The translations under genes were made by a program, and so were the position numbers. The notes beneath the pieces were generated by a model. The model was not told where the DNA came from, made no database searches, and worked only from the letters and a program-made list of their open reading frames with translations. Below are positions 3,481-31,474 of a stretch of 34,318 bases of DNA, piece by piece (the stretch's first letter is position 1; each line of letters begins with the position of its first letter). Location: NCBI GenBank assembly GCA_003818505.1, contig RPRI01000043.1, positions 1 to 34,318 on the forward strand, read 5' to 3'. Source of the stretch: Desulfobacteraceae bacterium (lineage in GTDB: Bacteria; Desulfobacterota; Desulfobacteria; Desulfobacterales; RPRI01).

Positions 3481-4607
3481 GGCCCCGCCTCCATGGATGG
3501 AGATTTCTTTTCAGGAACGGTAATCCCCAGTTTATCGAAGACCCGAAGGTTCATCCATACGTGAAAGAGAGGGGTCTCTTTTTCACAGGCTTTTCCCATC
3601 AGCACGCCGGCCGCCATCCGGCCGGTCTGCCTTCCGACTTCTTCATAATCGAATATAAAAGCCAGAGCGGCGCCGCTTTCATAAAAAAAACGATTATAGC
3701 CTATTACGGGGATTTTCTTGAATAAGGCGTCTTTAATAATATACTGTACGATACTTTCCGATATGACCGTTTGATCGGGGATAAGCCACAGGGCATCGAT
3801 ATTTTCCCAATTTTGTTTCAGAACAGCGGGAATATCTTTTTTGGATGACACCTTAAGCGGAACAATTTTCAAGTCACGGGAAGGGGCCTCAGCAGAGGCT
3901 TTCATGAAAAACTCAGAATTGTACCGAGGGTCGTAGAGGAGACCGAGACGTTTGCCGGCCGTGAGACCCTGGGCAATCATCTCAAGCTGTCTTTTCGCGG
4001 GGATATCCAGGGGAACTCCACATGCGGTCTCGGCCTGGCCGGATACGGCGGGAGGATTTAAGATCATGGAATACAGCCAGGCGGTTTTTTCCAGTGCAGG
4101 CTCTTCCCGGGTCAATCTGACGGCTTCCGGACCGAAGGCAACGAAGAGATCGAACTTTTCTCCGGTAAGAGTCTGAATGAGAACATCCCGGCTTTTACCC
4201 TTGAACTTTTCGAGCGAGAATACCTGGACTTTGGCGCTCGAGATTTCCGAGAGAACCGCGCTCATTCCTTCCACGGCTTCAACATACGGCCTGATGTCCC
4301 GTGAGACCAAAATCGCCACATTCGGCGCGCGGAACTCATCGCCCTGCAAAGCCTGCAAGGCGTCAGCCCACAGGAAAACCGAACAAAGCGCCGCTAAAAG
4401 CAACCGTCCAAAAAAGGTGAGACCTTTGCATAACTCCCCCTTTTGCCCGATTACTGCGTCAGGCTCAAATTTAAATCCTCGAAATACTCCATGTATTCCT
4501 GTGGTTGAAATTATCGCCTTCCTTGTACTTGGCCAAATTTGGATGTTCTTCAAAGGTCTCAAGGCATATGGCATTCCATGCGTGCGGAAAATAGCAGATT
4601 TCCTCAT
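3477..4607 (-). CDS. ABC-type periplasmic substrate-binding protein (ABC_sub_bind/TrpX-like), 5' end overwritten by a MITE
   Basis: The last 300 or so residues match the PF04392-type solute-binding fold: a first lobe from RAPNVAILVSRDIRPYVEAV, a GLLYDPRYNSEFF segment, and a second lobe with NIDALWLIPDQTVIS and IPVIGYNRFFYESG. A hydrophobic signal-like stretch (GRLLLAALCSVFLWADALQA) lies at residues 65-84 of the open frame, not at its start. The preceding 48 or so codons are encoded entirely by the MITE at 4418-4561, so the original start has probably been displaced. Candidate starts are the ATG at 4607, or a TTG at 4403 just inside the native sequence; neither has a good ribosome site. No permease or ATPase gene is adjacent. 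The ATGA overlap with the kinase suggests a ligand-sensing partner. Family assignment is firm; the start is not. Confidence 0.82.
   Translation of the reverse strand: MRKSAIFRTHGMPYALRPLKNIQIWPSTRKAIISTTGIHGVFRGFKFEPDAVIGQKGELCKGLTFFGRLLLAALCSVFLWADALQALQGDEFRAPNVAILVSRDIRPYVEAVEGMSAVLSEISSAKVQVFSLEKFKGKSRDVLIQTLTGEKFDLFVAFGPEAVRLTREEPALEKTAWLYSMILNPPAVSGQAETACGVPLDIPAKRQLEMIAQGLTAGKRLGLLYDPRYNSEFFMKASAEAPSRDLKIVPLKVSSKKDIPAVLKQNWENIDALWLIPDQTVISESIVQYIIKDALFKKIPVIGYNRFFYESGAALAFIFDYEEVGRQTGRMAAGVLMGKACEKETPLFHVWMNLRVFDKLGITVPEKKSPSMEAGP
4418..4561. mobile_element. MITE-like element, family 1, copy a (144 bp)
   Basis: The ends are TGAGACCTTTG and CAAAGGTCTCA, a perfect 11-bp inverted repeat that extends imperfectly inward. 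A 3-bp direct repeat, AGG, flanks it (4415-4417 and 4562-4564). The interior is nearly identical to the copies at 8318-8536 and 16831-16974. It has no coding capacity. It lies inside the reading frame of the binding-protein gene upstream of the signal-like segment, so it supplies its N-terminal codons or removed the original start. Confidence 0.88.
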
Positions 4608-4645
4608 ATCAGGCAGTTTGAACTTAACGTGCCGTGACTATTCAG

Positions 4646-4739
4646 GCACAAAGAGACAAAGGCACATAGGCACAAAGAGACAAAGGCACATAGGCAGAGA
4701 AAGACAAAGGCACATAGGCGCAGAGAGACAAAGGCATAG
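4646..4739. repeat. 24-bp tandem repeat (about four copies)
   Basis: The unit GGCACAAAGAGACAAAGGCA plus CATA occurs at 4646-4669 and 4670-4693 exactly, then at 4694-4717 and 4718-4739 with changes. A related sequence in the opposite orientation, rich in TTTGTGCCT, appears near 4927-4963. The 4608-5108 interval between gspD and the binding-protein gene holds only these repeats, a right-end fragment of MITE family 1 (about 4909-4924, CTTCAAAGGTCTC) and a TTGAACCC-rich stretch at about 5060-5095. I see no gene in it. Confidence 0.75.
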
Positions 4740-5108
4740 GCGCAAAGTCGTAGGGATACGATTTGGAATGCAGGACACAACCTGTCCGGCTTCCCGGCCG
4801 GCAGGCAACATCCTGTCTAAAAATCTTGGTTAATCAATGCGTTGTCCAGGACACTCGCAGTAACTGTTTACCCACATAAAACAGCGAAGAGCCAACTTAA
4901 ACAACTCATGCTCTTCAAAGGTCTCTCGACTTTGTGCCTTTGGTACTCTGTGCCTTTGTGCCTACCTGATTAGTTACAACTTGCTTAATCTTTTCGGAGT
5001 TTTCATCGGGGAGGTTAAGATGATGCTAAAAGCTCTGATAAAATCATTAGAAAACAAACAGTTGAACCCTCGAATCCTTGAACCCTTGAACCCTTTCTTC
5101 CGGTTACT

Positions 5109-7565
5109 TTACCTCAAATTGGTTACAACACTTCCTATCTTCTTCCTGAACTCTTCGCTGACTGCATCCACATCATCCAGACTGGTAATCACGCGCGGGG
5201 TAATCATGACGATCAGTTCTGACTTGGATACGCTTTTTGTCTCCGTTCCAAACAACCACCGGAGGAATGGGATCTGGACCAGCAAGGGCACACCGGTCGC
5301 CGCGTCGCTATCTTTGCTGCTGATCAGCCCTCCAATGACGATCGACTGATTGTGTTTTACAGTTAAAGAGGTCGCTATTTTCCTTTTGTTGAAGGAATAA
5401 TAATCCTTGTCGGCTACCTTGAGAAGTTCGCCTACATTGCTTACCTCCTGGGTGATATCCATGGTTACCAGGCCGTATTCACTTATATGAGGCGTGACGT
5501 CAAGGATCACACCGGTATTCCGGTACTCGACCTTGGTTTCCAGCACGTTCTGTCCGGTAGTCTGTATCGTGTAGCTCGTGCTGGGTATCGGCACCTCCGT
5601 GGTCACGTCAATCTTGGCCTGTTTATTATCGGAGGCAAGAACACTCGGGGAGGATAGGATATTTAGTTTGCTGTCCTGCGCAAGGGCATGCAGAGCGACC
5701 TGCCATTTTTCCGACAGACCCAGGACGTATTGAAGACCGGAGGCGCCTATAGTGGCGCTGAGAGAATCGATATCGGTCCAGTTTTCTTTTTTAAAGTTCC
5801 ATTCTACGCCCAATTCTGTTCCCTTGCCCAGGGATATCTCAGCAATGACCACCTCGATCAGCACCTGCCGCGGGAGGACATCAAGACGTTCAAGAATCTT
5901 TTCAACGATCTGATAATCTCCGGCGGAAGCCTCAATAATCAACGCGTTTCGTATAGGATCCGCCGTAATCCTTATGTCTCCCCGCAAGGTAACCGAGGGT
6001 CCCGTCTCCGTTGTAGACGATGCCGTTGATGCGGCCGGTGATGCTGATGCGGCCGGCGTCTTTTTCTCCGTGCCGCCCTTGGCGAACGGATTCGTGGGCA
6101 CACTTTCCTTTCCGGCGCTCTTTGTGATTTCTCCGCCTTTGCCGAAAATTGATTTCAATATGTCGCCAAGTTCGGTGGCCATCCCGTTTTTAACCGAGTA
6201 GATATGGATCTGCGGCTGGGCGCCTTCGCTCGGGACATCCAGTTTACGGATGAATTCATCCACCCGGCCAAATATGTCAGGCCCCGAACTGACTATAAGC
6301 AGGGAATTCATGCGGTTGATGGGAATAAACTTAACATCGTCTTTACTGCCTGCGGACAAAGATAATACTTCCCTGAGTAATTTTACGGCGTCTTCGGCGC
6401 TTATGTTTACAAGTGTGTAAAATCGATAGTTTATCTTCTCGAACACACTTACATCGAACACCTCAAGCAGCTTCAATACCTTAAAGATATTGATTCCCTT
6501 ATCAACAACCATCAGGGTATTCGAACCTCCTTCCGAGATAATCGTTCCGTCAGCGGAGACGAAAGGGGTTATCACCTTGGTCACTTCCTGGGCTGATATG
6601 AATTTAAGGGGTATGATCTGTACAACAATTCTTTCCTCGGGGGGAATATCTTTCACCTCCCTGCCGATCCTGAAGGAAATCGGCATTCGCGAAGCGTCTT
6701 TGAGCTTTGATATCCGGTAAAGATTTCCCTCCTTGACGGCTGCCAGGCCGTTCACCTCCAGAGTCTGATAAAAGATGGGGAAAATGTCTTCCGTCCTCAG
6801 AAGACCGGCCGTGTGGATCGTCACTTTCCCGCTCACAGTCTGGTCAATAATGTAGTTGATTTTTAATAGATCGGCCATAGTCCTGATCACCGAATAGAGG
6901 TCGGCATCGTCAAAATCGAAGCTGATCTGGCCGGTATTCGCAGGAGCCTTGTTCAATTGCCCAGCAGGCGCGGGAGCGGGCCCGGCCGGTTCGTTCCTGA
7001 GCGCAGGCGGAGCATCCGGAGCTTTGACTACCGGTATTAAAGGCACAACAGGCTCTGCCTGCCCGGTGACGGGCGCGCCCGATTCTTTCTCCTCCCCCTT
7101 TATTGCCCTCTTCACATAACCAAATGGCGTGGAAGTGATTTCAAACTGCCCTTTCTTATCCACATAGGTCTTTTCCGCCGGCTTTTCAGCCGCCCCGGAA
7201 GCTTTTACGCCGCCATCCGCCCCTGCCGTCTTGAGCGCGGGCGGAGCATCCGGAGCTTTTACCGCCGGGACCGGCGCAACTACAGGCTCTACCTGAGCGG
7301 GGGCGGGCGCGCTCGACTCTGTATCCGCTTTCTTTACTGCCCGCTTCATAGAACCGAATGGCGTGGTCTTGATTTCAAACCGCCCGTTCTTATCCGCCGG
7401 GGTCTTCTCTGCCGGTTTTTCAGCCGTTCCGGCAGCTTTTACGCCGCCATCCGCTTCCGCCTTGACGCCGTCATCCTTGATCCGGGTTGCCTGTCCCGCG
7501 CAACCCGTAACAAAAGAGACGGCAAAAAGCAGCGCAAAAAAAATGATTACTATAGCTCGTTTCAT
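5109..7565 (-). CDS. gspD: GspD, type II secretion outer-membrane secretin
   Basis: At 818 residues this is long for GspD. The signal peptide ends in a lipobox (SFVTGC, Cys22), predicting a lipoprotein secretin. Residues about 38-190 form a Pro/Ala-rich linker made of two copies of a 78-residue unit. Each copy contains F-E-I-x2-TPFG-x2-KRA (at 63-76 and 141-154), the same motif that ends GspC. The N0 domain starts near 213 (ISFDFDDADLYSVIRTMADLL) and is followed by N1-N3 domains, with a Ser/Thr/Ala-rich insert in N3 (about residues 495-535). The C-terminal secretin domain includes VLASDNKQAKIDVTTEVPI, VEYRNTGVILDVTPHI and VPLLVQIPFLRWLFG. It forms the outer-membrane channel for folded proteins. 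It is the last gene of the operon; its ATG at 7565 lies five bases after the gspC stop. Confidence 0.97.
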   Translation of the reverse strand: MKRAIVIIFFALLFAVSFVTGCAGQATRIKDDGVKAEADGGVKAAGTAEKPAEKTPADKNGRFEIKTTPFGSMKRAVKKADTESSAPAPAQVEPVVAPVPAVKAPDAPPALKTAGADGGVKASGAAEKPAEKTYVDKKGQFEITSTPFGYVKRAIKGEEKESGAPVTGQAEPVVPLIPVVKAPDAPPALRNEPAGPAPAPAGQLNKAPANTGQISFDFDDADLYSVIRTMADLLKINYIIDQTVSGKVTIHTAGLLRTEDIFPIFYQTLEVNGLAAVKEGNLYRISKLKDASRMPISFRIGREVKDIPPEERIVVQIIPLKFISAQEVTKVITPFVSADGTIISEGGSNTLMVVDKGINIFKVLKLLEVFDVSVFEKINYRFYTLVNISAEDAVKLLREVLSLSAGSKDDVKFIPINRMNSLLIVSSGPDIFGRVDEFIRKLDVPSEGAQPQIHIYSVKNGMATELGDILKSIFGKGGEITKSAGKESVPTNPFAKGGTEKKTPAASASPAASTASSTTETGPSVTLRGDIRITADPIRNALIIEASAGDYQIVEKILERLDVLPRQVLIEVVIAEISLGKGTELGVEWNFKKENWTDIDSLSATIGASGLQYVLGLSEKWQVALHALAQDSKLNILSSPSVLASDNKQAKIDVTTEVPIPSTSYTIQTTGQNVLETKVEYRNTGVILDVTPHISEYGLVTMDITQEVSNVGELLKVADKDYYSFNKRKIATSLTVKHNQSIVIGGLISSKDSDAATGVPLLVQIPFLRWLFGTETKSVSKSELIVMITPRVITSLDDVDAVSEEFRKKIGSVVTNLR

Positions 7566-7570
7566 ACTGT

Positions 7571-8302
7571 TTATTCTATCCTTCGCTTGATTGTTCCAAA
7601 AGGCGTTTTGATGATTTTAAATTCACCCGACGGCGCGCTTTTTCCTTCCACAGTTTTAGATGCAGGCGGTTCCGCGCCCGGTTTCGCTGCGGGTGGTTCC
7701 GCGCCCGGTTTCGGGGTGTCCGCCGCCGGTCCTGTTGCAACCACCGCTGGCGATGCCGCCTTTTCCGCAACAATTATTTGTCTTGCCGGTTTGTTCTTGT
7801 CATATAAAAGAATTTCGTGCTTATTAGCGCCGTCAGTAAGGATAATCCTGTCTTTCCGGATCTCAGCCACACTTAGATTCCCCATTGTGTCGCCTACCTT
7901 TACCCATTTCTCTTTGGCTCGAGACTGCCCGGCCGCCGGTCCGGATTCGGGATTAGTGATCAGGGCCTGTTTGCGTTCACCCGTTAAAACGACTCCGTAC
8001 AGAAAAATCATCTTCTCTGAAATATTGAGCGGCCCCGGTTTCAATTCTGCCGGAAGAGACTCGGATCTGCTCGAAGAAAAGAGGTTCTTACCCGCCACTA
8101 TTTCATAGGTGGGTTCGGGAGTCATCGCCCTCTCTATAATCTTTTTCCCGGACTGGGACTTCTCGGGACTTTTGCCGGCCTGTATCTCCGGAATCATTTC
8201 GTCGCCTTTGAACCAGACATTAAAACTCATTATTCCAAAGAAGACGACGAAAACCGCTATTGTAATATTAATCAGCCATGTTTTTGAAAATGTTTGGAAC
8301 AT
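7571..8302 (-). CDS. gspC: GspC-type inner-membrane protein of the type II secretion system
   Basis: The protein has 243 residues. A single N-terminal transmembrane helix (about 10-30) leads into a periplasmic homology region (about 68-172: KNLFSSSRSE ... LYGVVLTGERKQALI ... WVKVGDTMGNLSVAEI), the part of GspC that contacts the secretin N0 domain. No PDZ domain follows. Instead there is a Pro/Ala tail with the near-repeat KPGAEPPA, then a terminal motif EFKIIKTPFGTIKRRIE (227-243) that also occurs twice in the GspD linker. The chosen ATG at 8302 follows GAGGAAGG by seven bases; an ATG nine bases upstream overlaps the ribosome site. A MITE of family 1 fills the gap back to gspM. The role in linking the inner-membrane platform to GspD is family knowledge. 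Confidence 0.88.
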   Translation of the reverse strand: MFQTFSKTWLINITIAVFVVFFGIMSFNVWFKGDEMIPEIQAGKSPEKSQSGKKIIERAMTPEPTYEIVAGKNLFSSSRSESLPAELKPGPLNISEKMIFLYGVVLTGERKQALITNPESGPAAGQSRAKEKWVKVGDTMGNLSVAEIRKDRIILTDGANKHEILLYDKNKPARQIIVAEKAASPAVVATGPAADTPKPGAEPPAAKPGAEPPASKTVEGKSAPSGEFKIIKTPFGTIKRRIE

Positions 8303-8317
8303 TCAACATCCTTCCTC

Positions 8318-8536
8318 TGAGCCCTTTGCATAACGCCCCCTTTTGCCCGATTACTTCGTCAGGCTCAAATTCCAGTCCTCGAAATACTCCATGAGACCTT
8401 TGCATAGCACCCCCTTTTGCCCGATTACTGTGTCAGGCTCAAATTTCAATCCTCGAAATACTCCAATGTATTCCTGCGGTTAAAATTTTCGCCTTCCTTG
8501 TACTTGGCCAAAATTGGACGTTCTTCAACGGTCTCA
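8318..8536. mobile_element. MITE-like element, family 1, copy b (with internal partial duplication)
   Basis: A full 144-bp element (8392-8535/8536) is preceded by the first 74 or so bases of another copy (8318-8391, left end TGAGCCCTTTG). The outermost ends are flanked by CTC (8315-8317 and 8537-8539), so one insertion followed by internal duplication explains it. It fills the gspM-gspC spacer: its right-end TCA reads as the TGA stop of gspM on the minus strand, and its left end stops just before the gspC ribosome-binding site. Confidence 0.88.
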
Positions 8537-9139
8537 CTCTTTGACATTTTTCATGATGCCCGAAACGGTGATATCAGCCCGCATTTGCCCTGGGCCTCCC
8601 GCTCCGGCAACGCTAATTCCAACCCTTTCCACTGTCAAGAAGAATTTTGGAGACGCCTCGATCTTGTAAAGTATATCCTTAAGCTGTCTTATTGTCACGC
8701 TGACGGTAAACTGGACGGGGACGCTGATGTATTGTTCAGAATCCTGTTTCTGAGATGCCGGTATCTGCATGCTCTTTATCTCGACACCGCTTCCGAGCGC
8801 TATTTCGTTTAAGGTATTCTGGATATCCACTGCGGCAAGAGCTGACGTGTTTCCGGTCAAAAGCATTGCTTCCGCCCGTCCGAGAGACTGGTTAAGAGAA
8901 ACAAGCCTTGCGTCAAGCTCACCCCGCTCCTTAACAATCAGCCGGTACTTCGCAATTCTCTTTTTTGTGGCGGCAATCTCCGCCCTGCCGGCCTCAATTC
9001 CTTCATATAAATGGAACAACAGGAAAGCAAAACCGAAGAGAAGCGGAACTGTCACGGCTATCAACAGGTATCTTCTCCTTTTGTCAGTGATGAGCTTCAA
9101 ATACTCACCTTTTAACTCTTCCCATGAGAGGATTTTCAT
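8534..9139 (-). CDS. gspM: GspM-like type II secretion assembly protein
   Basis: The protein has 201 residues from the ATG at 9139, which is preceded by AAGTAAGG at good spacing; a TTG 27 bases upstream (9166) is a weaker option. It has a short cytoplasmic N-terminus, one transmembrane helix (about 25-45, YLLIAVTVPLLFGFAFLLFHLY), a coiled-coil segment (about 48-85) and a ferredoxin-like periplasmic domain (PilO/GspM fold). It pairs with GspL in the inner-membrane assembly platform. Its TGA stop is formed by the terminal bases of the adjacent MITE, so the native C-terminus may have differed. Identification rests mainly on topology, size and operon position after gspL. Confidence 0.82.
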   Translation of the reverse strand: MKILSWEELKGEYLKLITDKRRRYLLIAVTVPLLFGFAFLLFHLYEGIEAGRAEIAATKKRIAKYRLIVKERGELDARLVSLNQSLGRAEAMLLTGNTSALAAVDIQNTLNEIALGSGVEIKSMQIPASQKQDSEQYISVPVQFTVSVTIRQLKDILYKIEASPKFFLTVERVGISVAGAGGPGQMRADITVSGIMKNVKE

Positions 9140-9170
9140 AATAATCCTTACTTTTTCAAACGCCAAGGTG

Positions 9171-10544: not shown

Positions 10545-10589
10545 AGCCAACCTCCATCCACTAATTTGCAAAATCTTTGCATAAAATCT

Positions 10590-10637
10590 GAATGAACTAC
10601 CCCGAAGCAGTGCTTCGAGGAATTCTTTTGATTAAAC
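10590..10637. repeat. Dispersed repeat family 3, short copy
   Basis: ATGAACTACCCCGAAGCAG followed by TGCTTCGAGGAATTCTTTTG repeats the sequence at 29213-29256 and the ends of the longer copy at 28471-28626. It lies between the gspK stop and the gspL start next to a TTTGCATAA fragment resembling the left end of MITE family 1 (10572-10583). Confidence 0.65.
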
Positions 10638-10654
10638 TTTGCCGGACACCACAG

Positions 10655-11685: not shown

Positions 11686-12309
11686 TTATCCTCCTGCGCC
11701 TGCAATCACATAAATGGGGGGCTTCTTGTCATTCTCCTCGAGCGTAATCCTGACAGCCCGTGGAACCAATTCATCAACTGCCGGGTCCCAGCTTTTTTGC
11801 CATTTGGATGATTCTTCACCGGGCCGGTCTTTCAAGTATTCAAACACAATGCTTTTAACCGCTGGTATTAATTCGGTAAAATTGCTCTCGTCCGGGTAGC
11901 CCACGCCTGTCTTGTTGTCGGACAATGCAATATTCTTCTCGTAAAAGATAAGATGCTCTTTGTCTCCCTCCGTTTCCTGCTTAACGGCATATTTAACATG
12001 AACCAGGCCGAACCGGTTGCCGGGCGCCATGGGGATATGGGATACAAACTCTATGGACTTATCATCGCCCTTCAGAGAAGCCAGTTGTTGATCTCTACCC
12101 CGCACCTCCCTCACACAAGTTGATGCCAGCTGGCGCTTGATAAGATCCAGCACAACACGCTGCCGCTGGCGAATATCCACATCCTTTTCCCCTTTCTCCC
12201 ATGCCCGTATACCGATTCTTAAAGCGCCAAATATGATAACCACGATCAATGCCGTTATCGTAAGCGCTATCATTAACTCTAACAGGGTAAATCCCCGAGA
12301 CCTTTGCAT
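11686..12309 (-). CDS. gspJ: GspJ, minor pseudopilin
   Basis: With ATG at 12309 the product has 207 residues and a compact prepilin leader, MQRSRG, cleaved before FTLLELMIALTITALIVVIIFGAL with Glu at mature position 5. The frame stays open upstream to 12558, but those extra 83 residues come from repeat DNA (MITE family 2 at 12314-12492) and would bury the leader, so I reject them. The start codon itself lies in TTATGCAAAGGTCTC, the terminal sequence of MITE family 1, and its ribosome site is weak. The rest has the GspJ pattern (RQRQRVVLDLIKRQLAS ... ELIPAVKSIVFEYL). It is a tip component of the pseudopilus with GspI and GspK. Confidence 0.88.
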   Translation of the reverse strand: MQRSRGFTLLELMIALTITALIVVIIFGALRIGIRAWEKGEKDVDIRQRQRVVLDLIKRQLASTCVREVRGRDQQLASLKGDDKSIEFVSHIPMAPGNRFGLVHVKYAVKQETEGDKEHLIFYEKNIALSDNKTGVGYPDESNFTELIPAVKSIVFEYLKDRPGEESSKWQKSWDPAVDELVPRAVRITLEENDKKPPIYVIAGAGG

Positions 12310-12313
12310 AACC

Positions 12314-12492
12314 AGTTTCCATCCGGAAATGGCCCTTTTTGGCGATCTCTGTGTCAATCTGCGGGATTTCTTGTGCGACATACATTGCGTATGTCTCCGC
12401 GCAATCCCTTGATTTCCTTGAGCTTGCCTAAAATTGCCGATTTCCGAATTGGAAACGAAATAGTGTCTATTATTACTTTCCGGATGTACACT
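12314..12492. mobile_element. MITE-like element, family 2 (179 bp), between gspI and gspJ
   Basis: The ends are AGTTTCCATCCGGAAA and TTTCCGGATGTACACT, which match as inverted repeats at 14 of 16 positions. The interior (for example TTGTGCGACATACATTGCGT in this orientation) matches, in reverse complement, the sequence from 34172 to the window end. A remnant of one end occurs at 28660-28699. I found no clean target duplication. It has no plausible gene. The rest of the 12310-12582 spacer holds a second left-end fragment of MITE family 1 (about 12563-12582) immediately after the gspI stop. Confidence 0.75.
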
Positions 12493-12582
12493 AACTACTA
12501 TTTTAGGCTGAAGTGAGTATGCGCTTATGTTTTCCGACGGACAATTTTTCCGAAACATATCGAGACCTTTGCATAACGCCCA

Positions 12583-16830: not shown

Positions 16831-16974
16831 TGAGACCTTTGCATAACGCCCCCTTTTGCCCGATTACTGTGTCAGGCTCAAATTTTAATCCTCGAAATAC
16901 TAAATGTATTCCTGTGGTTAGAATTATCGCCTTCCTTGTACTTGGCCAAAATTGGACGTTCTTCAAAGGTCTCA
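16831..16974. mobile_element. MITE-like element, family 1, copy c (144 bp)
   Basis: Ends TGAGACCTTTG and CAAAGGTCTCA are flanked by CTT (16828-16830 and 16975-16977). It is in the same orientation as the other three copies and lies directly upstream of the gspE ribosome-binding site, between the operon and whatever promoter drives it. It would be transcribed in the 5' leader, where the inverted ends could fold. Confidence 0.88.
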
Positions 16975-22110: not shown

Positions 22111-22132
22111 TCAAAACGACAACGGTTGTATG

Positions 22133-22174
22133 AAAAAACGCTGTCCGCCTTCAAAGGCGGGCGGCGTTTTTTTT
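22133..22174 (+). terminator. Rho-independent terminator after the adhesin gene
   Basis: AAAAACGCTGTCCGCC, a TTCAAA loop and GGCGGGCGGCG form a long stem followed by eight T residues, 23 bases after the adhesin stop codon. Confidence 0.85.
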
Positions 22175-22194
22175 AACCCGACAACCAGCTCCTT

Positions 22195-22248
22195 TCGTTC
22201 AGATCGTTCAGATCGTTCAGATCGTTCAGATCGTTCAGATCGTTCAGA
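22195..22248. repeat. 9-bp tandem repeat, six perfect copies
   Basis: TCGTTCAGA is repeated six times without interruption. It lies downstream of the adhesin terminator and could vary in copy number by slippage. The remaining sequence to 22360 has no gene or signal that I can support. Confidence 0.9.
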
Positions 22249-23982: not shown

Positions 23983-24048
23983 AATAACCATGATATTGTT
24001 TTTCTTCTGTATTCTGACTCCTGACTTCTCATATAAAAGCGGTCAGAT

Positions 24049-24669
24049 TCACCCCCGGTTGATCAAAAGGGCGAGGCTCAGGCGGCTGCCGGTTTTCGTC
24101 TTTTCATAGATGGATGTGAGATGGGCTTTGACCGTTCTTTCGGTGATCTTGAGATTGAACGCAATTTCAAGGTTGGACTGGCCACGGGCAACCAGTTCTG
24201 CAACCTTATGCTCCGCTGGGGTCAAACCGGCCAATCTTTGCCCGGATCCCGGCACTGACTGTTCATTTGTTTTGGAATAGGATTCCAGAATCAACTGCTG
24301 TATGACCTTTTGCCCCAGCCAGACGGCGCCGCCTGAAATTACACGCATCGCCTCAAGGAGCCGTACCTGAGAGATATAGGTATTCCCATATCCTACAATC
24401 CCCAGTTTCAAGAAAGCGAGACCCTCTTCCTCGTTCGGCTGATCGGAGAGGAGAAAAATTTTGCTCAGGGGGGCCGCCCGGCGAAGCTCGGAAAACGCGG
24501 CCATGTCAACAAGGGAGCGATGCAGGAGGATCAGATCAAACGTCTTTTCAGCGCATCGGATCTTCAATTCTCTCAACAATGTCACTTGTTCCAGCGGATA
24601 TTGACCGCCAAGCAAACTTTCCCACCTCGTGATAACGGACTTGTTTGCGCTGCATAACAGCATTACCAT
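24049..24669 (-). CDS. LuxR-type (NarL-like) regulator with a degenerate receiver
   Basis: The protein has 206 residues. The C-terminal LuxR helix-turn-helix (about 147-203) is clear: LTPAEHKVAELVARGQSNLEIAFNL, then TERTVKAHLTSIYEKT. The N-terminal region has the receiver fold but lacks key residues: the acidic pair is replaced (LLCSANK), the phospho-acceptor position is His50 (FDLILLHRSLVD), and the conserved Lys near IVGYGNTYIS is absent. It is therefore probably not controlled by phosphorylation. ATG at 24669 is four bases after the LapC stop, so it is the third gene of a lapB-lapC-regulator operon and may regulate the adhesin or exporter genes. A second ATG at 24663 is possible. Confidence 0.9.
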   Translation of the reverse strand: MVMLLCSANKSVITRWESLLGGQYPLEQVTLLRELKIRCAEKTFDLILLHRSLVDMAAFSELRRAAPLSKIFLLSDQPNEEEGLAFLKLGIVGYGNTYISQVRLLEAMRVISGGAVWLGQKVIQQLILESYSKTNEQSVPGSGQRLAGLTPAEHKVAELVARGQSNLEIAFNLKITERTVKAHLTSIYEKTKTGSRLSLALLINRG

Positions 24670-24673
24670 GGGA

Positions 24674-26035
24674 TCATCTCTCTCTTAATGCCATATACTT
24701 GGCTCTCAGTACGGGTTTTAAAAGGTATGAGAGCACCGTTTTCTTGCCGGTCAGGATGTCGACGGATGCGATCATACCCGGAATAATGGGTAAAGGATTG
24801 GTTTGGGGGCCAAGATAATTTTTGTCGGTTCGTAGCCTGACGAGATAAAAGCTGTTGCCCTTTTCATCCGTAATGCTATCCGCGCTGATCTGTTCCAGTT
24901 TTGCCGTCAGACCGCCAAAGATCGTAAAATCATAAGCTGTGAATTTCACCATGGCGTCCTGGTTGGGCCTCAGGAAAGCGATGTCGGCAGGCTTGATCAT
25001 GGTCTCGATCAGCAGAGTACCTTCCAGGGGAACAATCTCGATAAGGTTCATACCGGGTTGGATAACGCCGCCGACCGTATTAATCAGGAGACGATTGACC
25101 GTCCCGTTTACGGGGGATTTTACAAGGGTTCGATCAAGCCTGTCTTGCAGGGCGATGGATGTGGCGGACTCCTCCCCGAGCTGCGCCAGAACCTCGTTCA
25201 ATTCCGACTTGGCCTTGTTGATGAAGGCAAGCCGCAACTCTTTCAGGGCCATCACGCTCTCTTCGATCTTGGACTGCGCCCTGGGAATCGCCTGTTTTGT
25301 CTGTTCTATCTCTCCCTGCATTTCACTTGCCTGACGTTCAAGACGGAGGACTTCCATCTCCGAAACTGCGCCCTTGGCCACAAGAGGCTTGGTCAGCTTC
25401 AGCTCTTCCTGAAAAAGGAGATAGGTCTTGTTCAGCTCCGCAAGTTTGGTGTTGAGCTCTCTTAATTCATGATTGCGTTGATTGTTTTGCTGCTGCTTGA
25501 TTTCCAGGCTGGATTGAAGCTCCCTTTTCCTGGATTCATAGAGCTCCTGTTCGCGGATGCCGATCTGCGGGTCTTGCGCCATCACCTCAGGGGGAACTCT
25601 GAAGGGCATGCCGCTCGTTTCAGCCTGCAGGCGCGCCGCCTTGGCCCTGTTGGAAAGATATTTAGCCTGATTCTGCTGAACCGATGAAGAAAACCGGGTC
25701 TGATCAATCTTCAGCAGCAATTGATCCTTTTTCACGGTATCGCCCACTTCTACCAGAATCTCCGAAAGAATCCCGCCCTCCAGATTCTGGATAACCTGTA
25801 TCTGGCTGGCCGGAATAACCTTGCCTTGTCCCCGTGTCACCTCTTCGACTTCCGAAACGGAAGCCCATAAAACGGCAATGACGGATAGAACCAGAACTGC
25901 CCAGAGAATCGCTCTGCCGCCTTTGGGAGACTGGGCCATGACGGACGAACGGATATCCGTGACAAGGTCGATATCCTCAGACGGCATGCGATAGAACAAT
26001 TCGTTTAATTTCGGTTTTTTCTCAAACTCAGACAA
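24674..26035 (-). CDS. lapC: HlyD-family periplasmic adaptor of the type I secretion system (LapC-like)
   Basis: The protein has 453 residues. It starts at TTG 26035, seven bases after AGGAG; no ATG is better placed. One transmembrane helix (about 42-62, AILWAVLVLSVIAVLWASVSE) is followed by a biotinyl-lipoyl-like half-motif (VIQNLEGGILSEILVEVGDTV), long coiled-coil hairpins (about 105-275), and the return half (VKSPVNGTVNRLLINTVGGVI). It ends TVLSYLLKPVLRAKYMALRER, typical of LapC/HlyD adaptors. It links the LapB transporter to the TolC-like LapE. It lies 14 bases after lapB and just before the LuxR-type gene. Confidence 0.95.
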   Translation of the reverse strand: MSEFEKKPKLNELFYRMPSEDIDLVTDIRSSVMAQSPKGGRAILWAVLVLSVIAVLWASVSEVEEVTRGQGKVIPASQIQVIQNLEGGILSEILVEVGDTVKKDQLLLKIDQTRFSSSVQQNQAKYLSNRAKAARLQAETSGMPFRVPPEVMAQDPQIGIREQELYESRKRELQSSLEIKQQQNNQRNHELRELNTKLAELNKTYLLFQEELKLTKPLVAKGAVSEMEVLRLERQASEMQGEIEQTKQAIPRAQSKIEESVMALKELRLAFINKAKSELNEVLAQLGEESATSIALQDRLDRTLVKSPVNGTVNRLLINTVGGVIQPGMNLIEIVPLEGTLLIETMIKPADIAFLRPNQDAMVKFTAYDFTIFGGLTAKLEQISADSITDEKGNSFYLVRLRTDKNYLGPQTNPLPIIPGMIASVDILTGKKTVLSYLLKPVLRAKYMALRER

Positions 26036-26049
26036 TGGTATTCTCCTGC

Positions 26050-28224
26050 CTACACGTTAATTCTACCTTTTTTCAGCGCCTCCATTACAGAAGCCTTGGG
26101 TCCGTCCGCAACGATTACACCGTTATCGATGACGATAAGACGATCCACCATTTCCAGCAGTGATGCCCGGTGCGTGATCAATATCAGGGTTTTCTCTTTG
26201 ATGATTTTGGACAAATTGTCTTTCAACCGGATTTCCGTTCGGTTATCCATGTTGCTCGTAGGTTCGTCTAAAACAACCACGGGCGGATCCAGGAGCAGGG
26301 CTCTTGCCAGAACGACGCATTGTCTTTGCCCCCCGGAGAGACCCCTGCCCAGTTCTCCGACTTCCATGTCAAAACCAAGGGAGTGCTTCTTTACAAATTC
26401 ATCGACGCCGGTCAGCTCCGCCGCGCGCATAATGGTGGTATCATCAATATCGTGGGTACCCATGGTGATATTGTCGCGTATGGTTCCGCGAAAGAGTATG
26501 AGATCCTGGGGGACATGGCCTATAAAGCTGCGCAATTCTGCAGGATCAATCTGCCTGATATCGGTTCCATCCATAGTGACCATTCCGCTGATCGGCTCAT
26601 ATAAACCCAGGAGCAGTTTACCCAGAGTGGTCTTCCCTGAACCGACAGGACCGATGATGCCGACTTTTTCACCGGCGGAGATTTCCAGGGTGATATTGTT
26701 AAGGACTTTTATGGTCTGCCCCGGATAGGAAAAAGTGAGATTCTTAACCCCGATGGCGCCCTGAAAGCGGGCTCTGTGTAAAAACGATTTTCCGAGAGGC
26801 CTCTCGACGGGAAGAGCCATGATATCATTAAGTGTTTTAAGCGCTTCCTTGGCGCGCTGGAAACGGGTGGCAAGACTGACGACCTGTCCCATGGGTGCGA
26901 TAACCTGCCGCGACAGGATGACCAGGGCAATCAGGCCGCCCTGCGTGAGAGTTCCTTCTGAAATCATATAGACGCCGGCGATTACGGCTGCAACCACCAC
27001 CGAACTTTGTACAAAAAAAGCAAAATGATTTACAGATGATGAGAGCAATCTAGATACGGAACTCCATTTTGCGATGTAGCCGACCGATTCTTCCCACGCA
27101 CGCTGGATCTGGCTTTCCGCGCCGAGCATTTTGATGGTCTCAAGACCCGATAATCCTTCGATCAAAATGGAATTTTTCTGAGAGGAGGCCTTGAATGTCT
27201 TTTCAACGGCTCTTTGCAGAGGAGCCTGGATCAGGACGGCATAGATCAGCATCAAAGCGATGGCGGTAACGAATATGTAGACTATGCTGCCTCCTATATA
27301 CCAGACAACAAACAGGCCCAAAACCATGAAGGGGAGATCGATAAGAGAGGTAATGGAAAATGAGGTGACAAAATCGCGGATACCTTCAAACTCCTGCAAG
27401 TTCTTGGAAAAAGAGCCTATGGATTGAGGACGAACCTCCAGCTTCAGTCCCAGAACTTTCTGGAGAAGCATCGCAGACATTTTCAGATCGGCCCTCTTTC
27501 CCGCCTCATCTACAAAATAACCGCGCAATGCGCGCATTACCACTGTAAACAAATAGATAACCATAATACCGATGGCAAGGACCCAGAGGGTCTCCACGGC
27601 ATTGTTGGGAATGACCCTGTCATAGACGATGAGCACAAAAAATGGACTGGTCAGACCAAAAACGTTGATCAGGAAGGAAGCGACAAGAACATCACGATAG
27701 ATGCGCCATGAGTTAAATAAGGTTCCCCAAAACCAGTGTTTTGTGGAACCGGGACTGAGATCGTCAAGAGATCCTTTTTCCATCCGGAATTTCGGATGTA
27801 CGAAAATAGCGTACCCTGAATAAAGTTTTTCCAATTCCTCCCTGGAGATAATTTTTTCTCCCATGCCTGTTTCAGGCATCAGTATCTTCAATTTTCCTTC
27901 TCCAGACATATTTTGAACGAGAACACATGCTTGGCGTTCATTAAGAAGTAATACTGCCGGAAGTTGCATGTAGGAAATTTTGGCAAGCGGTTTCTTCAAA
28001 ATTCGGGCTGCCAGATCGGCCCGGGCGGCAGCCCTTGAAAACAGCTCTACCGTCATGCGATTATGAACAAGCGGCAGACCGGAAGTTAAGCCGGTGCGGG
28101 AGGCCGGACGTCCATGCAGCTTCGTAAGCTGCATCAGACAATCCAGAAGCGGGTCATCGTGTCTGTCCGCGTCTTCACCAAGAATCCATTCTTCCGAACC
28201 GGCTTCTACATTAATTTCAGACAT
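26050..28224 (-). CDS. lapB: Type I secretion ABC transporter/permease (LapB-like)
   Basis: The protein has 724 residues. It has an N-terminal C39-peptidase-like domain (about 20-150) without a clear catalytic Cys-His pair, as in exporters of RTX-type and Lap adhesins that do not cleave a leader. A six-helix membrane domain spans about 165-450, starting near HWFWGTLFNSWRIYRDVLVA. The nucleotide-binding domain has Walker A GPVGSGKTT, signature LSGGQRQ, Walker B VVVLDEPTSNMD and an H-loop (LILITHRAS). It should export the adhesin at 19705-22110 across the inner membrane with LapC and LapE. The ATG at 28224 has only a weak ribosome site. Two tandem promoter-bearing repeats lie upstream. Confidence 0.95.
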   Translation of the reverse strand: MSEINVEAGSEEWILGEDADRHDDPLLDCLMQLTKLHGRPASRTGLTSGLPLVHNRMTVELFSRAAARADLAARILKKPLAKISYMQLPAVLLLNERQACVLVQNMSGEGKLKILMPETGMGEKIISREELEKLYSGYAIFVHPKFRMEKGSLDDLSPGSTKHWFWGTLFNSWRIYRDVLVASFLINVFGLTSPFFVLIVYDRVIPNNAVETLWVLAIGIMVIYLFTVVMRALRGYFVDEAGKRADLKMSAMLLQKVLGLKLEVRPQSIGSFSKNLQEFEGIRDFVTSFSITSLIDLPFMVLGLFVVWYIGGSIVYIFVTAIALMLIYAVLIQAPLQRAVEKTFKASSQKNSILIEGLSGLETIKMLGAESQIQRAWEESVGYIAKWSSVSRLLSSSVNHFAFFVQSSVVVAAVIAGVYMISEGTLTQGGLIALVILSRQVIAPMGQVVSLATRFQRAKEALKTLNDIMALPVERPLGKSFLHRARFQGAIGVKNLTFSYPGQTIKVLNNITLEISAGEKVGIIGPVGSGKTTLGKLLLGLYEPISGMVTMDGTDIRQIDPAELRSFIGHVPQDLILFRGTIRDNITMGTHDIDDTTIMRAAELTGVDEFVKKHSLGFDMEVGELGRGLSGGQRQCVVLARALLLDPPVVVLDEPTSNMDNRTEIRLKDNLSKIIKEKTLILITHRASLLEMVDRLIVIDNGVIVADGPKASVMEALKKGRINV

Positions 28225-28322
28225 AAATATTTTCTTTCGATTGTGAAAAAATAAACATTGGAAAACCGTTAAATCCCTTGACTCTGTTTCTAAACGTCGA
28301 TAGTTTTAACAGTGAACCATTT

Positions 28323-28350
28323 ATTATAATAAATCTATTATTTTTGTCGA
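28323..28350 (-). promoter_or_regulatory. lapB-facing sigma-70-type promoter, proximal copy
   Basis: On the minus strand TCGACA (28350-28345), a 16-base spacer and a perfect TATAAT (28328-28323). It lies about 100 bases upstream of the lapB ATG, within the first 81-bp repeat. Confidence 0.6.
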
Positions 28351-28403
28351 GGCTGATTTAGAAAATGCTTCTAAACGTCAATGGCCTCAATCGTACATCA
28401 TAT

Positions 28404-28431
28404 GTTATAATAAATCTATCCTTTTTGTCGA
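28404..28431 (-). promoter_or_regulatory. lapB-facing sigma-70-type promoter, distal copy
   Basis: On the minus strand TCGACA (28431-28426), a 16-base spacer and TATAAC (28409-28404), in the second 81-bp repeat. It has the same layout as the proximal promoter with one weaker base in the -10 box. Confidence 0.5.
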
Positions 28432-28470
28432 GGCTGATATAGAAAATGCCTCTAAACAGATCATATAAAA

Positions 28471-28626
28471 ATGAACTACCCCGCAGCAGAGCTTCGAGGT
28501 ATCTGGAATACGGAATACAGTAGTCAGAAGTCGGAATATTTTTTGAAGATATTTTAACACACCTTCTGGATTCTGAATTCTGGATTCTTACCACGAAGCA
28601 GAGCTTCGAGGAATTCTTTTGATTAA
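28471..28626. repeat. Dispersed repeat family 3, longest copy
   Basis: It begins ATGAACTACCCCGCAGCAGA, runs through GAATACAGTAGTCAGAAGTC and CCTTCTGGATTCTGAATTC, and ends CAGAGCTTCGAGGAATTC. It matches 17025-17163, with short relatives at 10590-10637, 19524-19575 (inverted) and 29213-29256. Confidence 0.75.
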
Positions 28627-28659
28627 TTGTAATATAATACAATAATTCTAACTTATTGA

Positions 28660-28699
28660 AAACGCAATAGTGTCTATAAGTTATTTCCGGATGAACACT
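28660..28699. repeat. Remnant of MITE family 2 (one end)
   Basis: GCAATAGTGTCTATAAG and TTTCCGGATGAACACT match the right end of the 12314-12492 element. It ends six bases before the TAGGAGC ribosome site region of the next gene. Confidence 0.6.
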
Positions 28700-28715
28700 A
28701 TTTAGGAGCAAAGCC

Positions 28716-29045
28716 ATGCTTTATGTTGAACGGGCCCGAGATGGAAAAATCATCGCATTGCATAACAGCCCTCGTCCAAATGCCGGTGAACAGAAATCCG
28801 TAATGGATGAAGAAATTCTCGATTTTCTTCATACAGCCGTCAGCGCGGATTCCCGGAAAATGTTGCTGGCGTTGTCGGATATGGGAATCATCCGCCTGCT
28901 GGAAGATCTGATCGATCTTCTCATCCAAAAAAACGTTATTATTTTTACGGAGCTTCCGGAACAGGCTCAGGAAAGAATCACAGAGCGGAAGCGGCTTCGG
29001 AAAACGGTCGCTGCTCAGGACCTGATGGTTGATGATATTTTATAA
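28716..29045 (+). CDS. Small conserved protein of unknown function
   Basis: The protein has 109 residues, with AGGAG eight bases before the ATG. The N-terminus MLYVERARDGKIIALHNSP is beta-hairpin-like. An all-helical body follows, including MGIIRLLEDLIDLLIQKNVI and FTELPEQAQERITERKRLRK. This pattern recalls short proteobacterial proteins that databases often mislabel as tryptophan synthase beta-like; they have none of that enzyme's residues. It has no signal peptide and is probably cytoplasmic. It is the only plus-strand gene among the minus-strand lap genes and sits between lapB and lapD, so a link to adhesion is possible but unproven. Confidence 0.75.
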   Translation: MLYVERARDGKIIALHNSPRPNAGEQKSVMDEEILDFLHTAVSADSRKMLLALSDMGIIRLLEDLIDLLIQKNVIIFTELPEQAQERITERKRLRKTVAAQDLMVDDIL

Positions 29046-29212
29046 ACCCATTCGGAAACATCGCCACACGTGATAATCCTCGGCTCTCTTGTGAAACATG
29101 TAAGATCTTTGCATAACATATGATCAAGAGCCATATCGGGGTATAGGAGCGCATGCAAACCGCATGAATCTGAACAAACCCTTCGTCAACGGCGGCGGCA
29201 TATCCGCACCCA

Positions 29213-29256
29213 ATGAACTACCCCGAAGCAGAGCTGCGAGGAATTCTTTTGATTAA
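29213..29256. repeat. Dispersed repeat family 3, short copy
   Basis: ATGAACTACCCCGAAGCAG and GCTGCGAGGAATTCTTTTG repeat the 10590-10637 copy. It is 17 bases from the lapD stop. A GATCTTTGCATAAC fragment of MITE family 1 lies nearby at about 29104-29117. Confidence 0.65.
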
Positions 29257-29272
29257 AAGGTCCCATGGGTTT

Positions 29273-31246
29273 TCAGGTTTTCATCATACCCTTGATCGGT
29301 TTCGGCTTGTCAACGATATATCCTTGAATTGCATCAAGATTCAGCTCTCTGAGGATCTGCCATTGTTGTTCGGTTTCCACCCCTTCCGCAATGACCTTTA
29401 TATCGATGCTATGGGCGACGCTGCACAGCGAGCCGATGAAGAACCGGCTGTCGCTTTCCTCGTCCTTGAGCTCCCCGGTATAGGCCCTGTCTATCTTGAC
29501 ATAGTCTGGACGCATCGATTTGAGATACCCCAAATTGGAGAAGCTCTGGCCGTAATGATCGAGTCCCATGGCATGCCCGTATTCACGCACGAATATGCTG
29601 AAATCCTTTATTAAATTCAGATTTTGAACTGCGCTGAATTCAGAAAATTCGAAGATGATCCTGGGCGCCGTCCGGGACAGAGCCTTCAGAGAGGATTGCA
29701 GCCATTGCCGAAACGCTTCATCCTGCAGCGAGGCGGAAGACACGTTCACTGCTATGTTTCCGACACTGAGCCTGCTGCTGTCAAGCTGCATCACCTCTTC
29801 GAGAACGATGCGGTCTATGGAAGAAACCAGATTCAGGCGCTCGGCAAGGGGCATAAACACGCCGGCGCTCAGGAATTTGCCGTCTTCCCGGATAATCCGG
29901 GAGAAAATCTCCAGATGCAGGAGGTGGTTCCTGTCGGTCGTCTTCACGACCGGCTGGGCATCAAGGCTGATTCTGCGCTCCCTGAGAGCTTTTTCAAGCA
30001 TCTCCTTCCACTGCTGCTGTCCCAGTGGCGCTTTGTCCGTCTCTTCGGTAATCGCACGGACAATCCACCCGTTGGGTCCCGCCTGCCTGGCAGCGGTAAG
30101 CGCCAGATCGGCTTCCGAGAGCAGACGGCTGAGCGTGGTGGTAACTTCATAGGTCGCGGCACCCACATAACCGATGTTGTCAGTAATCACGAGCTGCTCC
30201 GCGGCAATCTGGCTCAGCTTGTTGGCCACGCTGCCGGCAATCGTCTCCGCATCCCATGGCGGGGCGTCAGGAAGAAAGATTCCGAAGTCGCCCCCCGAAA
30301 TACGGGCAAGGGCGCAGCTCGCATACTGTTTGGTGGCTTCCGAGAGCAGTGTCGCCACCCTTTTTAGAAATTCGTCACCGGCCTGAAAACCCTTCAGTTG
30401 GTTAAGTTTGTCCAGATCATTAAGCTTGATCAGCAGCAGAATGCCCTTGGTGACGCTGTCGCGGCGATCGAGCCGCGCAGTGATTTGTGTATCGAAATAG
30501 CGACGGTTTCCCAAACCTGTCACCGGATCATGGTAGGAGCGTTCTCGGAGCCCTTCGGCATGGGTGACCTGTTCTTCGAACATCTCCTTCACTTTATGAG
30601 TCATGCGGTTCATGGCCTCAACCACGCGCCTGAGTTCCTTCGTCCACGGCATGCGTTCCTGAACCTCATACTCTTTTCTACAGATGGCGTCCGCCTGCCG
30701 TTCCACAAGTACGAGGGGCTTTAGCAGAAAGCGCAGACCGAAGCCTCCGGCAATCAGCACGAAAAGACCGCAGGCGATGAACCACCGGGTTGTGCTGACC
30801 ATATCTTCCCAAAGCGTTTTGTAGGCATATCCGGGGTGGCTTTTCACCACAATCGTGCCGGCCTGAATCCAGCCGGACATCACATTTGCACTTGCTTCTG
30901 GAGTTTCCAGGGGGATCCAGCGAATGAACCAGGGGGGAACGTTTTCAATTTTCACGCTGAGGACGCGATCGATCATAATCTTTTGTCTGGCATCGACCAG
31001 TTTGATCGTCTCGTAATACCCGCGATCAAATACGGCATTGATCATGCTTTCAACCGACGGCATGTCGTTTTTAATGACATGCTGGGAGACGGAAAGGCCA
31101 AGGGAGGTCGCCGTATCCTGGGCATGTGATTCAAGCTGATCTACCAGGAAAGAGCGGGTGCTGTCGAGCTTTGCATACCATGTCCCGGCAAAGAGAAGCA
31201 AAAACAGAATAAGAGTAAAAATGATGAGTTGGCGGTATAGTGTCAT
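29273..31246 (-). CDS. lapD: LapD-like c-di-GMP receptor with degenerate GGDEF and EAL domains
   Basis: The protein has 657 residues, close to Pseudomonas LapD. A transmembrane helix (about 5-25) and a second (about 155-175) bracket a periplasmic LapD/MoxY-type domain. That domain carries Trp126 in SGWIQAG, at the place where LapD uses a Trp to hold LapG. A HAMP linker follows (about 175-225), then a GGDEF domain (about 236-395) whose active-site loop reads SGGDF (317-321), and an EAL domain (about 412-655) in which the EAL motif is replaced (HLEIF, 444-448). Both enzymes look inactive, so it should bind rather than make or degrade c-di-GMP. When bound, it should sequester LapG and keep the adhesin on the surface. 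The MITE at 31266-31474 separates it from lapG. Confidence 0.93.
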   Translation of the reverse strand: MTLYRQLIIFTLILFLLLFAGTWYAKLDSTRSFLVDQLESHAQDTATSLGLSVSQHVIKNDMPSVESMINAVFDRGYYETIKLVDARQKIMIDRVLSVKIENVPPWFIRWIPLETPEASANVMSGWIQAGTIVVKSHPGYAYKTLWEDMVSTTRWFIACGLFVLIAGGFGLRFLLKPLVLVERQADAICRKEYEVQERMPWTKELRRVVEAMNRMTHKVKEMFEEQVTHAEGLRERSYHDPVTGLGNRRYFDTQITARLDRRDSVTKGILLLIKLNDLDKLNQLKGFQAGDEFLKRVATLLSEATKQYASCALARISGGDFGIFLPDAPPWDAETIAGSVANKLSQIAAEQLVITDNIGYVGAATYEVTTTLSRLLSEADLALTAARQAGPNGWIVRAITEETDKAPLGQQQWKEMLEKALRERRISLDAQPVVKTTDRNHLLHLEIFSRIIREDGKFLSAGVFMPLAERLNLVSSIDRIVLEEVMQLDSSRLSVGNIAVNVSSASLQDEAFRQWLQSSLKALSRTAPRIIFEFSEFSAVQNLNLIKDFSIFVREYGHAMGLDHYGQSFSNLGYLKSMRPDYVKIDRAYTGELKDEESDSRFFIGSLCSVAHSIDIKVIAEGVETEQQWQILRELNLDAIQGYIVDKPKPIKGMMKT

Positions 31247-31265
31247 TATATAAACCCTCTATTTA

Positions 31266-31474
31266 CGAAACCTTTGCATAACACCCCTTTTTGTCCGATA
31301 GCGCTATAGCTTCACAAAAGTGTCTGTGTCAGGTTCAAATTTCAACGATAGGTGACACGAAGTGAAGCTAAGCGCTAACTTTTAAATGCCATGACATCGT
31401 ACTTTGTTCTATGAAAATCTAATAGTTACCTGTCATTGTGCCTGGGCAAAATTGAACGTTCTTCAAAGGTCTCT
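31266..31474. mobile_element. MITE-like element, family 1, divergent copy d (209 bp)
   Basis: The ends CGAAACCTTTG and CAAAGGTCTCT are the family 1 ends with one or two substitutions. A longer, different centre lies between TTGTCCGAT and GGGCAAAATTGAACGTTC. A 3-bp duplication, TTA, flanks it (31263-31265 and 31475-31477); the right-hand TTA is the TAA stop codon of lapG on the minus strand. It fills the lapG-lapD spacer in the same orientation as the T2SS copies. Confidence 0.8.

Follow-up and report, generated by a model that had tools for sequence, protein, structure and literature searches.

The window analysed here, a stretch of 34,318 nucleotides, is contig C97 of a Desulfobacteraceae draft genome (4.43 Mb, 352 contigs) and carries genes of a type II secretion system as well as a LapD/LapG pair, and copies of a miniature inverted-repeat transposable element (MITE) are dispersed among them (Table 1; compared loci, genomes and contigs are denoted by L, G and C numbers). 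The neighbouring genes were named by Pfam match (gspM, gspD, gspE and others of the secretion system, LapD and LapG); for gspC the search of the window proteins gave no Pfam match, and the gene is named by its position alone. As described in a first-pass annotation of this DNA, there are four sites in one shared orientation, each 5' of a minus-strand gene. Its distances to genes were also confirmed: the element edge precedes the starts of gspC, gspE and lapD by 16, 17 and 20 nt, respectively, and the opposite end touches the stop codons of gspM and lapG. The statement that the copies lie between genes holds for gspM-gspC, lapG-lapD and the gspE leader, but not for the copy at 4418, which is inside the open reading frame (ORF) 3477-4607. 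The unit is 142 bp long and not 144 bp, because its ends are GAGACC/GGTCTC and the outer T and A are flanking bases. In addition, the stretch 8318-8536 is not one long copy; an older fragment, of which about 70 bp lie to the left of the break, is interrupted by a second insertion at 8393. The source genome contains 43 matches to the MITE (75 candidates at a first look, 40 scored), and the tip was found 119 times with at most one mismatch, versus 5 times for a reversed-pattern control.

Table 1. Copies, fragments and end remnants of the repeat in the window.
Feature	Position	Strand	Remarks
MITE copy a	4419..4560	-	142 bp, in frame within the ORF 3477-4607 of an ATP-binding cassette (ABC) substrate-binding protein; flanks AAGGT/AAGGC (4 of 5)
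Right-end remnant of a further copy	4911..4925	-	CTCTTCAAAGGTCTC on + strand
Left portion of an older MITE copy (fragment)	8319..8388	-	broken by copy b
MITE copy b	8393..8535	-	143 bp, inserted into the older copy; flanked on the outside by CCTCT/ACTCT (4 of 5); creates the gspM stop codon
End remnant of another element	12297..12312	-	GAGACCTTTGCATAAC on + strand; reverse strand gives the likely gspJ start codon at 12309
Second end remnant	12562..12577	-	GAGACCTTTGCATAAC on + strand; just 3' of the gspI stop
MITE copy c	16832..16973	-	142 bp, 17 nt 5' of the gspE start; exact duplication ACTTT on both sides
MITE copy d	31267..31473	-	207 bp, diverged, internal additions; lapG/lapD junction; exact duplication TTTAC; empty site in two relatives

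The consensus element has the ends GAGACCTTTGCATAAC...GTTCTTCAAAGGTCTC and no transposase gene of its own. Target duplications were analyzed in 117 copies from the source genome and from further loci of the genus; copies were left out if their flank was shorter than 15 bp, copy d of the window was too diverged for the search pattern and is not included, and the nested copy at 8319/8393 was counted twice until duplicates were removed. An exact 5-bp duplication was present in 30 of the 117 copies, compared with 0.47 expected from shuffles, and 35 further copies had one mismatch in the five bases (about 3 expected). The 3-bp repeats that had been taken for target duplications were at chance level (2 copies versus 2.9 expected), and the 3-bp model was rejected. 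In other genera of the order, 38 of 57 copies had an exact 5-bp duplication; these copies stem from 60 regions that were chosen from the listed best matches, away from contig edges and without flank clustering. The lapG-lapD junction was found in two relatives (lapG 88% identical; three of the ten genus genomes, including the source, carry lapG), and the site was empty in both of them, showing that the element is mobile. For gspM-gspC and gspE, the relatives have no close homologous site (24-27% identity for gspC, 54-56% for gspE), and, thus, an empty site could not be shown there; the stretches fetched around the gspE homologues of four relatives (54-56% identity, L304-L307) contained no copy, with the same detection limit. 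Three nested insertions were seen, two of them at AAAGGGGG or AAAGAGG (L124, L032) and one, copy b of the window, at ATGGAGTATT. The proposed transposition of a MITE is therefore borne out by the 5-bp duplications and the empty lapG-lapD sites.

Matches to the MITE were present in all ten genomes drawn from the genus and in 76 of 146 genomes of the order, representing 55 of 103 genera (E <= 0.001; the weaker ones may be related families). An ancestral, non-mobile spacer, which had been named as the finding that would speak against mobility, is ruled out for lapG-lapD by the empty sites, and the duplications, the nested copies and the wide occurrence leave it with practically no probability also elsewhere. 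In one relative, G005, a gspC-like gene is preceded, at a distance of about 0.8 kb, by a copy of 187 bp whose ATTAC duplication is exact (L300 491-677, G005:C293).

The tip GAGACCTTTGCATAAC is common to at least 116 stretches of GTDB genomes. Among the same-tip matches listed, a second end could be paired within 420 bp in 72 cases, and 60 of these had other interiors. Two stretches contain complete insertion sequences (IS) that carry the same tips and code for IS5-family transposases scoring above the NCBIfam cut-off (L122, 1217 bp; L130, 1447 bp), and L130 shares also the difference between the left and the right end of the MITE, GCATAAC versus TTCAAAGG. According to the available part of a published study, the tip of the IS5-family element ISNme1 is GAGACCTTTGCA, that of ISPg1, with the ends TTCAAAGGTCTC, differs in one base, and MITEs of Neisseria meningitidis and Porphyromonas gingivalis have the same or nearly the same tip as these elements (PMC4596501). 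With matching terminal inverted repeats, a short length, no transposase gene, and dispersed copies with duplications and empty sites, the repeat has the features of an IS5-family-derived MITE.

The suggested search for a transposase with the same ends was thus successful in other genomes (L122, L130), but the ten genus genomes yielded the N-terminal half only. The source genome has, of this transposase type, a 164-aa N-terminal half (L320 = G000:C271:4923-5402). Such halves of 164-174 aa (also L318, L319, L321 and L322, the last one cut by a contig edge) are open in five of the ten genus genomes, and the ratio of nonsynonymous to synonymous substitution rates (dN/dS) is 0.08-0.21. By these sequence features the half looks domesticated. 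In the three flanks that were read (L224, L226, L229), it is accompanied by genes that we take to be hldE- and DUF167-like. A locus of the same order, L399, has a 324-aa open frame that is 66% like the transposase relic over residues 32-159, together with a matching right end, TTTTCAAAGGTCTC.

For the analysis of the position relative to genes, copies with similar flanks were removed, leaving 103 of the 117; in one cluster of four copies, part of the linkage was by a single flank. Gene calls came from a simple caller based on codon scores; single assignments may err, and the errors are expected to be symmetric between the two element ends. Both neighbours were called for 88 copies, and with co-directional neighbours the left end faced a gene start and the right end a gene stop in 47 cases, versus 13 cases of the reverse (p = 1.2e-5). 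When Shine-Dalgarno-plus-ORF and tRNA calls were added, a gene 5' end, i.e., a ribosome-binding site (RBS), a tRNA or a transfer-messenger RNA (tmRNA), was near the left end in 45 of the 103 copies and near the right end in nine (both in one), and near neither end in 50. Start codons at a distance of 10-20 nt were found 21 times at left ends and twice at right ends; at 20-110 nt the numbers were 16 and 8. Six tRNA or tmRNA 5' ends were at most 60 nt away from a left end and none from a right end. Three tRNAs start exactly at nucleotide 6 from the left end, that is, 5 nt off, although the duplication is unrecognisable in one of these cases (L290).

The copies from other genera gave the same picture: a gene 5' end was near the left end in 25 copies and near the right end in four, the co-directional placement was 28 versus 9, and one further tRNA begins at nucleotide 6 from the left end. 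The genome-wide check that had been proposed thus revealed that orientation and proximity to starts are far from random, both within the genus and in other genera. A literature search on tRNA-directed, Desulfo- or RBS-specific cases gave no match; the pattern may nevertheless have been published. At two loci, L427 and L290, a copy separates tandem tRNA genes; it follows the upstream tRNA after a few nucleotides and precedes the downstream one by 5 nt.

A bias of this kind could result from random insertion and later purging, if copies in the other orientation, or otherwise placed in 5' regions, harmed expression and were lost. For example, the reverse strand would present the anti-Shine-Dalgarno-like CCCCCUUUU, while the kept orientation presents AAAGGGGG. 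It fits with purging that the bias is strongest near the start, as seen from the numbers given above, and that copies with at least two mismatches in the duplication are biased slightly more strongly (23 versus 2) than copies with exact duplications (10 versus 2). The latter value, together with 25 versus 5 for copies of at least 90% identity, shows that recent copies are already biased, which speaks against purging, and the tRNAs at a distance of exactly 5 nt are not readily explained by it. The computed openness of the RBS points in both directions: for 29 copies it was 0.465 as found, 0.469 for the empty site and 0.439 with the element flipped (lower in 18 of the 29), as purging would predict, but the seven copies with the right end toward the start also lost openness on flipping (0.425 as found, 0.407 empty, 0.406 flipped). 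Purging as the sole explanation is less likely; selection against the flipped orientation may add to the bias.

A sister family, family B (L336-L395; G002, G006, G007), was used for comparison with the family described so far, family A. Its members have the ends GAGCCASTTTCAAAACG, a length of 142 bp and an interior similar to that of family A, and 34 of 49 copies, which were not flank-clustered, have exact 4-bp duplications. The orientation was 9 versus 17 (37 copies with both neighbours called), and one start per end was found within 10-20 nt. Because family B shows no bias despite its similar interior, which also argues against purging, the ends, and hence the transposase, probably decide about the oriented placement. 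At a first look there were 260 family B candidates in G002 and 325 in G006, many of them at contig edges.

Elements of other kinds with the same tips, from many phyla, have an excess of G over C in the region 5-15 nt outside the ends (0.32-0.33 versus 0.14-0.17; 175 ends, among the matches listed). In 60 paired same-tip elements, again among the matches listed, two ends were 10-20 nt from a called start, with a caller that had been trained on the present genus. When a Shine-Dalgarno sequence plus start was searched for with strict criteria beside ends with the same tip elsewhere, 7 of 161 ends had one within 40 nt, versus 0-4 in windows farther away; for ends like those of family A the result was 0 of 22. 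A target profile that had been trained away from starts predicted the hot zone. An intrinsic Shine-Dalgarno motif, derived from the position profile, was convincing at first and then turned out to be confounded; what was retained is the preference of same-tip elements for G-rich flanks. Two further candidate causes were not distinguishing, i.e., a promoter-like GATAAT box within the element (26 to 3 with and 19 to 6 without the box) and the integrity of the Shine-Dalgarno sequence plus ATG in the left end (30 to 5 versus 15 to 4).

The first-pass annotation had proposed that the outer 28 or so bases pair and that each transcript would carry a hairpin. This was borne out and extended, as the consensus is predicted to fold over all 142 nt, with -57.6 kcal/mol for the gene-sense strand and -39.5 kcal/mol for the antisense strand. 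The gene-sense RNA was the more stable one in all 103 copies of family A, all 48 of family B and all 57 from other genera; other same-tip elements had mostly smaller differences between the strands, a few as large. In 78 copies of 141-144 nt, 96.4% of the cells pair, compared with 27-57% for structures slid by 1-3 columns, a comparison that favours the unslid version because the structure was derived from the consensus of the same sequences. Covariation was also high, since 18 pairs were changed on both sides (6.3 in shuffles), corresponding to 102 versus 20.9 cells. Of 15 pairs that differ between families A and B, 13 remain paired, seven of them through double changes. Variants of 165 and 188 nt carry inserted stretches that resemble stem-loops. 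Rfam covariance models matched none of the copies from four sources (window, L051, L041, L030) at E <= 1.

The pairing differed between classes of alleles. It was kept in 14 of 16 shared alleles (4.9 expected), in 17 of 28 intermediate ones (12.4) and in 27 of 80 private ones (18.5). For the private alleles it was kept as often in the antisense strand (30 of 80), and when private changes were counted by copies, 34 of 108 were paired versus 31 in the shuffle. The contrast between shared and private alleles in family B alone had p = 0.48, with a set that was too small. Nine flank-matched pairs of copies were 0.85-0.96 alike, compared with 0.89 for random copies, and were not consistently more alike than their own flanks; no clear constraint on flank-matched copies was found. 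According to these comparisons, it is mainly in spreading lineages that the fold persists, which speaks against the host having co-opted the element in general; settled copies may be mildly constrained.

These results bear on the proposal that the host has co-opted the copies, as regulators or RNA-processing units with a cis effect on the gene downstream. The hairpin in the sense strand with its covariation, the adjacency of the preferred side to RBSs, tRNAs and tmRNA, the mild excess of paired private alleles and eight insertions common to two genus genomes are in line with it. A precedent would be the MITE RNAs of ERIC and NEMIS, which act on mRNA, the orientation being decisive for ERIC (PMC2229807, as far as covered by the available part of this review). 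However, private mutations preserve pairing little more often than expected, the sense strand has no advantage over the antisense strand in this respect, the excess disappears when copies are counted, and the flank-matched pairs are not consistently more alike than their flanks. Furthermore, the oriented placement occurs also at tRNA genes and is missing in family B, pointing to the mode of insertion and not to a host function. For the two operons of the window, for which co-option had been suggested, the lapG-lapD copy is lineage-specific and the gspE copy was not seen, at the detection limit used, in the stretches fetched from the four relatives. Co-option is therefore regarded as unlikely.

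The insertions of the window differ in their relation to the gene boundaries. Before the insertion, gspC probably started immediately after the gspM stop codon. Through the insertion gspM is shortened by a few codons, its stop codon now consisting of a T of the flank and GA of the element, and 217 bp separate the two genes. The lapG stop codon is native and lies inside the target duplication, and the gspE copy is in the leader of the apparent first gene of a cluster.

Taken together, the evidence favours, with a probability of roughly 0.56, a MITE whose own ends direct it to the 5' ends of genes and which travels as a self-contained RNA hairpin, its settled copies being mostly passengers. An IS5-family transposase would recognise the GAGACCTTTG ends, move the non-autonomous element and duplicate 5 bp, as suggested by the ends, the duplications and the empty sites. 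The ends would favour targets with a purine- or G-rich stretch just outside the duplicated bases, with the left end tending toward the G-rich side. Such a target choice could account for the observed placement directly 5' of a Shine-Dalgarno sequence or a tRNA 5' end, with RBS and tRNA intact. A read-through transcript would contain one 142-nt hairpin, and the RBS should be about as accessible as in the empty site, according to the computed values. The hairpin would be selected in lineages that keep spreading, and settled copies would decay with little visible constraint, which argues that they are mostly tolerated passengers and not host regulators.

Several observations weigh against this interpretation. 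The hot zone is weaker in other genera (6 versus 2 at 10-20 nt); this and the mild excess of paired private alleles are the reasons why the probability was not set higher and that of co-option not lower. Family B lives in other genomes, and host differences could matter. The G-rich flanks of same-tip elements elsewhere are present on both sides and are, thus, uninformative on orientation. A profile that was trained only on sites with the left end facing a gene 3' end predicted the opposite orientation, and the profile of start sites failed to transfer to sites facing gene 3' ends (16 of 32), which lack the G-rich left flank. The composition of the flanking genes therefore confounds the test, and an intrinsic choice of orientation is unproven. 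The loss of RBS openness on flipping is slight but could be visible to selection (p = 0.01). The strand asymmetry of the fold occurs also in other families (e.g., L148, L111), and it is slight in two of the 11 A-like copies of a wider set (L139, L153). Lastly, a full-length transposase with these ends was not found in the ten genus genomes searched, although many contigs end at repeats.

A more far-reaching idea, which is doubtful at present, is that a DDE-type element is selected as a structured RNA. Its spread would need the full-length one-strand hairpin and the insertion directly 5' of an RBS or a tRNA gene. As a stealth leader it would leave the host gene readable, and the domesticated transposase half may hold it in check.

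The left end contains AAAGGGGG plus ATG and could be a portable translation start that fuses MQRS... to downstream genes. gspE is indeed open in frame from the left end, and gspJ most likely starts in such an end, but the ATG frame is not enriched among frames open for at least 60 codons (7, 5 and 5 of 40 ends in the source genome and 19, 27 and 27 of 156 ends elsewhere, by frame), and this explanation is very improbable. For gspJ, the nearest in-frame ATG before the prepilin motif sits in the element-end remnant and gives the leader MQRSRG followed by FTLLE; the ORF upstream of this ATG continues through repeat sequence. Another repeat, starting with AGTTTCCATCCGGAAATGGCC, occupies about 12311-12500 of the window, and it occurs also in the flank of L251, where a MITE copy is inserted in it. 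Tandem-like runs of 'gacaaaggcacataggc' are present at 4650-4760, with the substrate-binding gene on one side and gspD on the other. At 22113-22243 on the plus strand, directly after a LapA-like gene, there is a weak match to the IMES-3 RNA (29.3 bits, gathering score 55, E 0.066).

Small gene-adjacent repeats are often suspected to be regulators. Two controls helped to part the mode of insertion from host function, namely, a family with other ends and the comparison of private with shared mutations. The results suggest that a position at gene 5' ends and its direction can stem from the element ends via the target choice of the transposase, and that an element can be under selection for an RNA structure that serves its own spread. 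The repeats are related to known derivatives of insertion sequences, whereas a role as gene switches is unproven, and they make a clean case in which to test insertion next to ribosome-binding sites and the 5' ends of tRNAs.

The element belongs to a known kind, the IS5-type MITEs, and is marked by its oriented placement at gene 5' ends and its RNA-like mode of evolution. It has the same ends as full IS5-family elements (NCBIfam NF033581 type) of other genomes, L122 and L130, but has no transposase, and no shared sequence was noticed beyond the ends, for which no systematic search was made. Copy a resembles the Rickettsia palindromic elements (RPE) in being an in-frame insertion that stays open within an ORF. 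It is open for 49 codons including the duplication and would extend translation ahead of the N-terminus of the substrate-binding protein; in contrast to RPE, this is one case that was noted, in-frame cases were not searched for, and the 5-bp duplication preserves the frame only with 142-bp copies. ERIC and NEMIS/Correia are likewise small, transcribed and hairpin-forming, and the orientation matters for ERIC; unlike most such repeats, as far as described in the part of the review that was available (PMC2229807), the present MITE has no TA end motif, and no TA was encountered at its ends or targets, the ends being GAGACC/GGTCTC and the 5-bp duplications varied in sequence. The closest likeness in the tips is to ATR of N. 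meningitidis and BrickBuilt of P. gingivalis, which, according to the available part of PMC4596501, share the tips GAGACCTTTGCA/CAAAGGTCTC or nearly so, are transposase-free and have about 19 copies per genome. By the same source, BrickBuilt has a tandem-repeat core, its duplications vary in length from 2 bp upward, and its distance to coding sequences is 49-591 nt, whereas the MITE described here is mostly 142 bp long, makes 5-bp duplications and touches, with many of its copies and in one orientation, ribosome-binding sites and tRNA 5' ends.

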